Below are positions 10,093 through 21,906 of a stretch of DNA of 32,375 bases, piece after piece (position 1 is the first letter of the stretch; each line of letters begins with the position of its first letter). The notes under the pieces are model-generated. The model worked only from the letters and a program-made list of their open reading frames with translations. It had not been told where the DNA came from and ran no database searches. The position numbers and the translations under genes are program-made. The DNA is from Deltaproteobacteria bacterium. Its GTDB lineage: Bacteria > Desulfobacterota > Dissulfuribacteria > Dissulfuribacterales > QOAL01. The stretch is from the NCBI GenBank assembly GCA_024275145.1, contig JAJRZR010000038.1, positions 1-32,375 on the forward strand. Direction: 5' to 3'.

Positions 10093-10167
<75 letters not shown>

Positions 10168-10177
10168 ACCGGAGACG

Positions 10178-10208
10178 AAAGGGGCAGTATGAACTGCCCC
10201 TTTTTATT
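10178..10208 (+). terminator. Rho-independent terminator after tRNA-Gly
   Basis: AAAGGGGCAGT-ATGA-ACTGCCCCTTT followed by TTATTT: a perfect GC-rich stem with a four-base loop and a T run. It lies 10 bp after the tRNA and only about 20 bp before the cytochrome start codon, so the cytochrome must depend on read-through or on a promoter not recognised here. Confidence 0.9.
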
Positions 10209-10225
10209 TGAGCAAGCCTTTAAAG

Positions 10226-12130
10226 ATGCCATTAAGATCTTTACTCACCCTAAGTTACGGCTTCTTTTTAACAATAATCGTTACATGTGCATGTCTTTTC
10301 AGTGCCTCCCCTGCTAATTCAACCAAAAACAGGGTGGACAGGGTCACTACCACCGTAAACGGCAGGATCGATCTATGTCTTTCATGCCACGATGAACGAC
10401 CGGACAAGGCCCATGCGAGAGAGATATTGGGTTGCGCCATATGTCATAAGGGCAATCCCTTGGCAGGTGACGAACTGCGAGCCCACAGGGGCATGGTCCT
10501 GAACCCCGGAGAATTACAATATGCAGATGAGACCTGCGGCCAAACCGGATGTCACCCAAGGGAGGTAAAATGGGTAAAGAACTCGCTCATGGCAACGAAC
10601 CGGGGCATCATAAGCACCCTGAGATATTACTGGGGCGAGACCGATGATCACAACGAATCCATATCGGTTGCAAGAATAAGGGCCGGACACATGAAATCCC
10701 CCGCCCTTGACTACTATAGAAAGATGTGCGGAAGCTGCCATCTCTCCATGAAAAGGCATAGCCTGCCAGGTTTTCTGGCAGAAAAAGGGGGGGGATGTAC
10801 GGCCTGCCACCTCCGCAAACCCCCTGTAGGCCAGAACAAAAAAGGGGTGGCCCATATACAGATTACACGTAACATCCCCATGTCAAACTGTATCAAATGC
10901 CATAACAGGAGTGGAAGGATAGGTCTTTCATATCAAGGGAAATTTGAAAGTGAGGGCTACGGGACCCCCTACCAGGATGGCGGCCTCAGCCATCTCGAAC
11001 TTATCGATGGCCGCTTCTTCCAAAAAATGCAACCTGACATCCATTACGAGAAGGGCCTCATATGTATAGATTGTCATACACAAAAGGAGGTCATGGGTAA
11101 CGGAACATCGTATCCACATTTCGAAGACCAGCTACAGGTAAAATGTATCTCTTGCCATACCAATAACAAGAACCTTGAAATACTGGCGAGGCAACGCGCC
11201 ACTAGAACGAACAGATCATGGACCCCTGACATGACGGCACCGCCTCTTTTGAATATAAAAAAGACAATGGAAAATGCGTTCGTGCTGGAAGGCAAAAGGG
11301 ATAAAAGGCCTTACCCCCTCAAACCGCCTGATCCCACCTCTTGCAAAAATCCGGTTCACAAAAGACTTTCGTGCCAGGCATGCCACAGCCGCTGGGTTCC
11401 ACAATGCTATGGCTGCCATGTAAGGGACGACAGGAGCCAGTATCAACTGGACAAGTTGGACAACATCGAGACACCCGGTAGATGGCAGGAATACAGGTCG
11501 TTTATGCGATTTGAAAGCCCTGCCCTGGGTGTTCTCAAGGAAAAAAATACGGCAGGAGAAGAAATTGTCCTGCTCGTACCCGGTTGACAGGATTTTGTAT
11601 CCTTTCTGGACGAAAGGGGAAAATGGATCAGGGACTTCAAAAGGCTTACGGTTTCATGGATGGATCCCCATTCCACCTCTATCAGGGGACGCACCTGCCC
11701 GGATTGCCACCAGAATCCAAAGACATTGGGGCTGGGAGAAGGGAACCTGTGGAATGCCGACGGCAGATGGTATTTTTCTGCCTCCAGCAGGACAGTCGAG
11801 GCAACGGTCACCGGGACCTTGTCATTGATATCCGGTCGTGCGAGAGACCATGCCGCCATATTAAATAATGATAGGCATGCAACCGGTCAAAAATCCCCCG
11901 CAAACAACCATCCCCTTGACGCCTTCGTGGACATCGATGGAAATGCCCTAGTCCACACATCCAGAAAAGGGCTGAGGCCCTTTGACAAAAAGGAAATCGA
12001 CCGCATCCTGTACGTCGGGCTCTGTCTTAACTGTCACCGGGATTTTAAAGACCCGGTCATGAAAAACTGGCAGCCGGGACATGCTCCAAGGCCTTGTAAG
12101 AACCTGGTTGGATGTATTCCCACGCAATAA
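10226..12130 (+). CDS. Probable selenocysteine-containing periplasmic multiheme c-type cytochrome (in-frame TGA at 11585-11587)
   Basis: Read through one TGA, this is a 634-residue exported cytochrome. ATG 10226 starts a signal peptide (about 1-30, ending SASPA); TTG 10208 is a weaker choice because it abuts the upstream terminator. Neither has a clear Shine-Dalgarno sequence. Eleven CXXCH haem sites are visible, starting at residues 51, 70, 168, 191, 222, 280, 307, 383, 394, 491 and 600, plus one CX4CH at 104-110. The TGA is codon 454, in the context LLVPG-TGA-QDF. The same frame stays open beyond it for 180 codons that hold two haem sites, so the downstream part is clearly coding. A SECIS-like hairpin starts 12 nt after the TGA. 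The likely role is periplasmic electron transfer; donor and acceptor are unknown. A nonsense mutation is the main alternative, in which case the product would stop at residue 453. Confidence 0.85.
11585..11619 (+). promoter_or_regulatory. Candidate bacterial SECIS element with its UGA codon
   Basis: The TGA at 11585-11587 is followed by a hairpin TCCTTTC-TGGAC-GAAAGGG (11600-11618). It has seven pairs including one G-U, with apical loop UGGAC. The loop begins 20 nt (19 intervening nt) after the UGA and has G in its first two positions. This spacing and loop fit the known bacterial SECIS pattern bound by SelB (upper stem of 4 or more pairs, loop about 16-37 nt from UGA). The fit is by eye, not scored. 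Confidence 0.65.
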
Positions 12131-12510: not shown

Positions 12511-14046
12511 TTGCTGGATGAAAACCACAACGGGACCAATACCCCTCTGACATATTCACCGACCGCGCCTATACTGCCTAATCTCGCCAAGTGGAAGGTA
12601 CTAGTCGTCGAGGACGAGGAACTTGCAAGGGAATTTTTGCAGGCTCATCTCACCCATTGGGGTCTCAACGCCGTTACAGCAGGAGACGGCAAAGAGGCCA
12701 TGGCCATACTGCTTGACGATCCAGGCATCCGCCTGCTTATAACCGATCTACACATGCCGGGTATCGATGGCCTGACACTTCTCAAAAGAATCAGGGATAT
12801 GGGCCGGACGAAACTCTACTGCATAGTCCTTAGCGGCATTCAAAACCGGCAAACCCTGGTCAATGCCCTGAGCGCCGGGGCCTCTGACTATCTTATAAAG
12901 CCTTGTCATCCGGAACAAATCTTTGCCCGCCTAGCAGTCATGGACAAGCTTATCAACCTGGAAGAAAACTATGAGACCCTGATAAAGGATCTGTTTGACG
13001 TCATGGGTGAGATGCTGGGAAGCCGGGACAACTATACCCTGGTCCATAGCTTGAGGGTGGCGGCCCTGTCGAGGCGCATGGGATCACTGCTAGGGCTCAA
13101 CCCCGAAGAGTTGAACACACTGGAAATAGGATGCAGGATCCATGACATAGGAAAAATTGCCATACCCGATGACATCCTGTTGAAGCCGGGCAAATTTGAC
13201 AACCTTGACAAAAAAATCATGGACATGCACCCAACCATAGGGGCACGTTTTATAGCATCCAGGTACCCTGACGACAGGATAACCGAAATAGTGCTAAAGC
13301 ACCACGAACGCCTGGACGGCAGTGGTTATCCGGCAGGCATAAAGGGAGACGAGATAAGCCTAATGGTACGGATAGTGTCCGTAGCAGACGTCTATGAGGC
13401 ACTCATTGCAAAGAGACCTTACAAGAAACCCATCTCCAGGGACAAGGCACTAGACATCCTCGATAAAGAAGTAAGGCTCAAACGGATAGATGAGAATGTA
13501 GTAAAGGCATTGGAGGAAGTAGTGGCACATTGGGACCCGCTTTGCATAGAACCAAGGTGCTATGAAGACACCTCTATACTTGAATCCTTCAGGGAGATAA
13601 CCTACTTTCGTGAACCCCTCTGCAGTTTCTATAATTACCGCTATCTTCTGGCCCTGGACAAACAAAGGGATCTCGGTATTCTGGGCGATGAATATCACAT
13701 GTTTTTCATTGTGATCAAGGGATTAAGGGATATGAACCAAAGGCTCGGATTCATAAAAACCGACCAGATCCTCGATGAGCTAGGTGAAAGCATCCAGAGT
13801 GAGCTAAAGAAATTTTGTAAGGGTCATAATAATTGCAAGGGTGAAAATATCATATTCAGAAAGGGAACCGACTACCTGCTATTCGTGTCGTACCCCCGAC
13901 AGGTCATCGGACAGATCGAGGACATACTCACACGGCAACTGGATCGATATCGACAAAAGTGGCAACTCAAGGCAACCATAAGTTGCCGTTCCTTCCCTGC
14001 TGAATGCAGCTTGGACAAGGCGCTCAATCAATTTCTGGAAATCTGA
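12511..14046 (+). CDS. Response regulator: REC, HD-GYP c-di-GMP phosphodiesterase, degenerate GGDEF
   Basis: A 511-residue cytoplasmic regulator predicted to hydrolyse cyclic di-GMP. It starts at TTG 12511 behind AAGGAAGGGAG. A receiver domain (about 28-145) carries phospho-acceptor Asp79 in ITDLHMPG and Lys130 in the usual LIKP motif. The HD-GYP domain (about 155-345) keeps HDIGK (211-215) and HHERLDGSGYP (264-274), so the metal and substrate residues look intact. The C-terminal part (about 366-511) is not a standard tail: FYNYRYLLALD, then MFFIVIKGLRDMNQRLG, then FRKGTDYLLF follows the GGDEF fold order, with KGTDY replacing GGDEF. It is probably a catalytically dead sensory or docking domain. 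A diguanylate cyclase gene follows 15 bp downstream. No kinase is adjacent on this strand. Confidence 0.93.
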   Translation: MLDENHNGTNTPLTYSPTAPILPNLAKWKVLVVEDEELAREFLQAHLTHWGLNAVTAGDGKEAMAILLDDPGIRLLITDLHMPGIDGLTLLKRIRDMGRTKLYCIVLSGIQNRQTLVNALSAGASDYLIKPCHPEQIFARLAVMDKLINLEENYETLIKDLFDVMGEMLGSRDNYTLVHSLRVAALSRRMGSLLGLNPEELNTLEIGCRIHDIGKIAIPDDILLKPGKFDNLDKKIMDMHPTIGARFIASRYPDDRITEIVLKHHERLDGSGYPAGIKGDEISLMVRIVSVADVYEALIAKRPYKKPISRDKALDILDKEVRLKRIDENVVKALEEVVAHWDPLCIEPRCYEDTSILESFREITYFREPLCSFYNYRYLLALDKQRDLGILGDEYHMFFIVIKGLRDMNQRLGFIKTDQILDELGESIQSELKKFCKGHNNCKGENIIFRKGTDYLLFVSYPRQVIGQIEDILTRQLDRYRQKWQLKATISCRSFPAECSLDKALNQFLEI

Positions 14047-14061
14047 CAGGTTGAAGGTACC

Positions 14062-15027
14062 ATGCAAGAAGGACAGAAGAACCAAAAGGCTGAAAGATTG
14101 GCCGTCCATGTTACAGAGACAGCCAGGCAGGCCCTTAAGAACGTCGTGGTCAAGGGAACACTCCCTTGGCCCCAGACCTATTCAGAGGAATTCTGGTCAG
14201 TGGCAAGGGCGTGTGGATACGATGATATATTGTTCAAGAAGACAAGACCGCCAGAGGTATCCGTCCAGGCGGTCGACGGATTCCTTGAGCAAGCAGACCG
14301 TATCCTGAGCGGGGTAAGCGATACGGTCCACTCCTTTGTGACCGGTAGCAAGGTCTGCCGGGAAGGCATGGCCGAGACCATCCATTCAATAGATAAGCAA
14401 ACCAGTGACTCCAGCCCTGTAAACAAGGAGATACAACGTTTAATAGCCATAAACAAGGAACTGGAAGAGCACACTGCCAGGACTGAGGAGCAACTGAAGA
14501 GCCAACAGGAGCTCATCAAGGATCTTCAAGCCAAGCTGAAGATAGACCCACTCACGAAGCTATTTAACCGGAGATCGCTCGAAGTGGATCTTAAAAAGGA
14601 GCTGGCCAAGGCAAGAAGGTACAACTATCCCCTTTCCCTCATTATGGCCGACCTGGATAAATTCAAGGAGATCAACGATAGCCATGGTCACCAGATTGGA
14701 GATAGGGTCCTGCAGAAGATTGCAAGGATGATCCGCGACTGTGCCAGGGAAGTTGACACGGTTTACAGGTATGGAGGGGAAGAATTCCTGATCATGTTAC
14801 CGCATACCACAGGAGTGGATGCGGTAAACCTGGCCGAGCGCGTAAGGCTCAAGGTGGCCAGGCATATATTTACAGACCGCAAGGCATGTCTCAAACTAAA
14901 CATCACGCTTTCCCTTGGGGTGGCACAATTTGTTCCCGGAGATTCAGTAGATGACCTCGTACTCAGGGCGGACAAGGCCCTGTATAAGGCCAAGGCCACC
15001 GGACGAAACAAGGTGGTAAGAATCTAG
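14062..15027 (+). CDS. Diguanylate cyclase (GGDEF domain)
   Basis: Makes cyclic di-GMP from two GTP. The 321-residue protein starts at ATG 14062 after GAAGG. Residues 1-115 are of unknown fold, and about 120-160 form a coiled coil leading into the GGDEF domain (about 160-321). This has DPLTKLFNRR, DLDKFKEIND and an intact GGEEF (238-242). The inhibitory I-site RxxD is present as REVD (229-232), five residues before GGEEF, so product feedback inhibition is expected. There is no membrane segment. It sits 15 bp after the HD-GYP regulator, so enzymes making and breaking c-di-GMP are cotranscribed; regulation of one by the other is inferred. Confidence 0.93.
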   Translation: MQEGQKNQKAERLAVHVTETARQALKNVVVKGTLPWPQTYSEEFWSVARACGYDDILFKKTRPPEVSVQAVDGFLEQADRILSGVSDTVHSFVTGSKVCREGMAETIHSIDKQTSDSSPVNKEIQRLIAINKELEEHTARTEEQLKSQQELIKDLQAKLKIDPLTKLFNRRSLEVDLKKELAKARRYNYPLSLIMADLDKFKEINDSHGHQIGDRVLQKIARMIRDCAREVDTVYRYGGEEFLIMLPHTTGVDAVNLAERVRLKVARHIFTDRKACLKLNITLSLGVAQFVPGDSVDDLVLRADKALYKAKATGRNKVVRI

Positions 15028-21850: not shown

Positions 21851-21906
21851 CGCCCCTGAAGATTGAAAAACTTCCTGGTCAGTACGCGGTTACAAGGTCT
21901 TTGATC

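Follow-up and report, generated by a model that had tools for sequence, protein, structure and literature searches.

A reading frame in a 32,375-nucleotide stretch of deltaproteobacterial DNA (hereafter the window, meaning the whole stretch that was analyzed) is interrupted by a TGA that, at a probability of about 0.96, encodes selenocysteine (Sec), and we are nearly as confident that this residue lies within a functional, full-length cytochrome with 12 heme sites. As far as the sources consulted here go, the protein founds a new selenoprotein family, a Sec variant of the ExtM-like multiheme cytochromes. A sequence-only reading of the window had already called a selenoprotein at this site, and that call is supported by a codon column occupied only by TGA or Cys, by the presence of the sel genes, by a hairpin detected comparatively, and by purifying selection. 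The features discussed below are as follows, in window coordinates.

10093 to 10167, plus strand: tRNA-Gly(GCC), directly upstream of the cytochrome gene, an arrangement kept in most of the order
10177 to 10204, plus strand: strong terminator-like hairpin with a U-rich stretch, between the tRNA-Gly gene and the start codon (z = −4.1)
10226 to 12130, plus strand: coding sequence of the 634-amino-acid, 12-heme cytochrome, with TGA-454 taken as selenocysteine and a TAA stop
10376 to 11419, plus strand: ten heme sites 5′ of the TGA (nine CXXCH and one CX4CH, the latter at residues 104 to 110)
11342 to 11344, plus strand: Cys373, a candidate redox partner of Sec454, proposed from its invariance
11585 to 11587, plus strand: in-frame TGA at codon 454 (predicted Sec), a position with a TGA or Cys codon in 78 of 78 homologues
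11600 to 11618, plus strand: bacterial-SECIS-type hairpin, found comparatively, with a 7-bp stem (11600 to 11606 paired with 11612 to 11618) and the loop UGGAC (11607 to 11611)
11696 to 12037, plus strand: two CXXCH heme sites 3′ of the TGA (residues 491 to 495 and 600 to 604), missing from a truncated product

When the TGA is read through, translation of 10226 to 12130 gives 634 amino acids with a single in-frame TGA, which falls within the motif LVPG-U-QDF, and ends at the TAA. This confirms the open frame across codon 454 that the sequence-only reading had described, together with its observation that two further CXXCH sites lie beyond the TGA and would be lost on truncation. In total, the protein carries 11 CXXCH sites and one CX4CH site (CGQTGCH); the earlier placement of the TGA between the tenth and eleventh heme sites is correct provided that the CX4CH site is counted. 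Automatic annotation had been expected to split the gene, and standard open reading frame (ORF) calling does cut it in two (10208 to 11587 and 11660 to 12130). The N terminus is hydrophobic and, judged by eye, signal-peptide-like, and the cytochrome is probably exported or periplasmic. Its Pfam matches are to cytochrome c3/c7-type domains; a sequence search against solved structures returned no match, and AlphaFold modeling on five sequences gave a mean pLDDT of 32.

The order comprises 46 genomes, 40 of which encode an orthologue (E ≤ 1e-100). Thirty-seven of these contain one in-frame TGA, two have a TGT Cys codon (L029 in genome G027 and L034 in genome G032), and the remaining one (G025) reaches a contig end before the TGA site. 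Thirteen further TGA orthologues were found in other families among 395 genomes sampled from the phylum. That 37 of the 40 orthologues within the order and 13 from other families share the exact place puts the TGA position far beyond chance. The sequence-only reading had named Cys, or a TGA at the aligned position, in relatives as support for its call; when 78 homologues are aligned, the codon-454 column indeed holds TGA in 50 sequences, TGC or TGT in 28, and no other codon. The named relatives are metagenome-assembled genomes of Thermodesulfobacteriota/Deltaproteobacteria, and the column is also TGA in the closed chromosome of Dissulfurimicrobium hydrothermale (G023). PG-U/C-Q is a motif in most of the 12-heme cytochrome family, and its U/C column is invariant even in paralogues, which suggests that residue 454 matters throughout the family. 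Purifying selection acts on the codons beyond the TGA, as seen in nine close pairs with dN/dS of about 0.05 to 0.4; for the pair within the window's own genus, dN is 0.18 and dS is 1.08 over the codons 3′ of the TGA.

In a maximum-likelihood tree (quick search, with SH-aLRT as the only support measure), all 50 Sec proteins and two Cys proteins form one clade of 52 members (support, 96). Most simply, this topology suggests that Sec was gained once, on the branch leading to the clade, and was then replaced by Cys in two reversions. The two Cys members (L029 and L034) are nested within the Sec clade, and both of their genomes still encode selB and selD. These reversions offer natural controls for a comparison of Sec with Cys.

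The genome from which the window derives (G000) encodes all four components of the selenocysteine machinery that the sequence-only reading had proposed as a check on its call: selA (contig C39; E = 1.6e-159), selB (contig C9), selC (C111:26716-26809, with anticodon UCA and a score of 73.3 bits against the tRNA-Sec model), and selD (contig C57), which has an in-frame TGA of its own. In the proposed mechanism, SelB with Sec-tRNA(UCA) would bind the hairpin located just 3′ of the UGA, leading to insertion of Sec at position 454.

The comparative evidence for this hairpin, whose loop begins 19 nt past the UGA in the window, comes from the TGA genes as a group. Among the 37 orthologues in the order that have the TGA, 87% of cells at the stem positions hold standard pairs, compared with 46 to 74% in slid controls, and some pairs are altered on both sides; 34 of the 37 have UGGAU or UGGAC as their loop. 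An initial test, which scored a fixed stretch by its minimum free energy, gave a weak signal (mean z = −1.24; median P = 0.09), and a second test for hairpins of SECIS form (−4 kcal/mol or better) was designed after that result had been seen. By the second test, 48 of 50 TGA genes contain such a hairpin versus 3 of 21 Cys orthologues, and z, measured against synonymous recodings of each gene, averages −1.66 among TGA genes and 0.00 among Cys orthologues; the associated P values are about 1e-7, a figure that overstates independence among related sequences. Taken by itself and compared with shuffles, the window's hairpin is not significant (z = −0.64). The two reverted Cys genes within the Sec clade have no hairpin excess (z of about 0.1), which fits a hairpin that is there for the UGA rather than for the protein.

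Other explanations of the TGA have to be weighed against these results. The window's assembly spans 120 contigs, and a sequencing or assembly error at codon 454, or a pseudogene broken there, might be suspected in such a genome; however, an identical TGA occurs in 50 separate genomes from many families, including one closed chromosome, and selection continues to act on the codons beyond it. The shared codon excludes an error of the kind that resequencing would correct, which the sequence-only reading had named as a possible refutation, and we regard this explanation as having almost no chance of being correct. Translation of the TGA as another amino acid (e.g., Trp), by general stop readthrough or by an altered genetic code, would look the same in a single genome, namely, as an open frame over a stop. 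Against it, relatives have Cys at this position and never Trp or any other residue, the Sec machinery is complete, and the hairpin vanishes in the Cys forms. In addition, TGA is an ordinary stop for several other ORFs in the window, including that for GreA. This account is therefore very improbable, and we give equally little credence to the idea that the locus encodes two separate proteins, a 10-heme cytochrome that ends at the TGA and a small 2-heme protein that starts at 11660. The ORF from 11660 to 12130 does begin with ATG, but Cys relatives encode a single unbroken frame, and the stretch between the TGA and this ATG is conserved as protein (QDFxSFLD...). We thus favor selenocysteine within one full-length cytochrome.

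Of 33 loci examined within the order, 23 have a tRNA-Gly(GCC) gene directly upstream of the cytochrome gene and in the same orientation, and in the window the terminator-like hairpin that follows it ends about 20 nt ahead of the cytochrome start codon. Apart from the tRNA-Gly gene and a few shared neighbors, we found no conserved operon around the cytochrome gene within the order; in most of the order, including the window's genome, it is solitary and has no linkage to genes for a Rieske protein or cytochrome b. Adjoining it in the window are genes for an HD-domain response regulator and then a GGDEF protein (12511 to 15027), likely a cyclic-di-GMP signaling pair. Farther along, an ORF at 21901 to 22935 matches RNA 3′-terminal phosphate cyclase (Pfam RTC; E = 7e-77).

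In seven relatives (G305, G413, G243, G285, G073, G109, and G400), genes for a Rieske protein and then a cytochrome b lie directly upstream of the cytochrome gene, and an eighth relative, G021, has the same arrangement within the order. The identity of these neighbors was checked with Pfam in G305, G413, and G400. The linked cytochrome is the Cys form in G400 and the Sec form in the other seven. Based on gene order in these eight relatives, we think it reasonably probable that the 12-heme cytochrome is the c-type subunit of a Rieske/cytochrome b complex. Such a complex, as suggested by the same gene order, would connect the quinone pool, by electron transfer, with periplasmic partners in sulfur metabolism. 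Alternatively, the selenoprotein could act outside any Rieske/cytochrome b complex, as a stand-alone periplasmic reductase (with selenite, polysulfide, or metals as example substrates) or as a relay in extracellular electron transfer. That the gene stands alone behind tRNA-Gly in most of the order, including the window's genome, is consistent with this alternative, as is the origin of the closest named family in a selenite/tellurite ext cluster; however, the ext cluster itself encodes a Rieske protein and a cytochrome b (PMC5877670), and direct linkage to these genes recurs in several families. Moreover, the window's genome retains both genes, as a pair on contig C45 apart from the cytochrome gene, and a cytochrome b gene is present in 44 of the 47 genomes searched. 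We consider the stand-alone role a credible but less probable proposal than membership in a Rieske/cytochrome b complex.

What Sec454 does in the protein can be addressed only tentatively. It would stand in for a Cys that is invariant across the wider ExtM-like family, probably for redox chemistry. The Sec clade and the nearest Cys sister clade together have 63 members, and Cys373 is present in every one of them but missing from distant Cys orthologues and from paralogues, a distribution that makes it a candidate selenenylsulfide partner of Sec454. For its 12 hemes, the family has only seven well-conserved histidines outside CXXCH sites, plus Met122 and Met290, so that Sec or Cys may also serve as an axial ligand. 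The sequence-only reading had held, from its place outside a CXXCH site, that residue 454 is not a heme ligand thiol. Residue 454 is indeed not a thioether cysteine, but an axial (sixth-ligand) role is possible given the small number of conserved histidines. Sec454 would thus either form a reversible selenenylsulfide by pairing with Cys373 or act at a heme, and our confidence in either chemical role is low. The more specific proposal, in which Sec454 is a functional group of the heme array (an axial selenolate ligand of one heme, or one half of a selenenylsulfide with Cys373 in electron exchange with a heme) within a Rieske/cytochrome b complex of sulfur disproportionation, is unlikely on present evidence; if true, it would represent a new kind of redox center.

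The novelty of the family was assessed against several sources. A review dated May 2026 catalogs 119 families and subfamilies of prokaryotic selenoproteins; the cytochromes among them are ExtKL and OTR, GSU2204 is listed as a CXXCH-containing outer-membrane protein, and none of the 119 is ExtM-like. No NCBIfam 20.0 model covers the 12-heme cytochrome at its cutoff, and a search limited to published open-access papers found no report of this cytochrome as a selenoprotein. One carrier of the family, D. hydrothermale, is in culture and is an obligate sulfur disproportionator; the combination of 12 hemes with a predicted Sec at a TGA codon is conserved across sulfur-metabolizing bacteria, and Sec appears to have been kept beside a heme array along a whole lineage. 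As ORF calling splits the gene, annotation-based marker searches for sulfur disproportionation would tend to miss the family.

Among known systems, the best NCBIfam match is ExtM (NF040943; 262.4 bits; E = 7e-78). This score is below the curated cutoff of 800, and by sequence the protein is thus a distant homologue of ExtM and not an equivalog. ExtM has 12 hemes and belongs to the Geobacter extHIJKLMNOPQS selenite/tellurite cluster, which encodes it with the Rieske protein ExtO and the cytochrome b ExtP (PMC5877670). The two proteins share homology over most of their length, the number of hemes, and, in the eight relatives described above, Rieske and cytochrome b neighbors; they differ in the predicted Sec in place of Cys, and the window's gene is solitary, without an ext cluster around it. 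ExtKL (NF040886, from Geobacter) was first proposed computationally (PMC1914089) and is likewise a multiheme c-type cytochrome with an in-frame TGA in Desulfobacterota-type bacteria. ExtKL belongs to a different family, however, and has 5 hemes, all ahead of the Sec, whereas the protein described here has 12, two of which lie beyond it. OTR, the tetrathionate reductase-family octaheme cytochrome (TIGR04315), is a multiheme cytochrome that also has a Sec form, but it carries 8 hemes rather than 12. The 12-heme cytochrome matched neither NF040886 nor TIGR04315 at E values of up to 1. Finally, the order of genes in the eight Rieske-linked relatives (Rieske, cytochrome b, cytochrome c) resembles that of bc1- and b6f-type complexes, with the differences that the cytochrome b of these relatives is a short type of about 277 amino acids and that a 12-heme cytochrome, predicted to contain Sec in seven of the eight, replaces the cytochrome c1 or f subunit.
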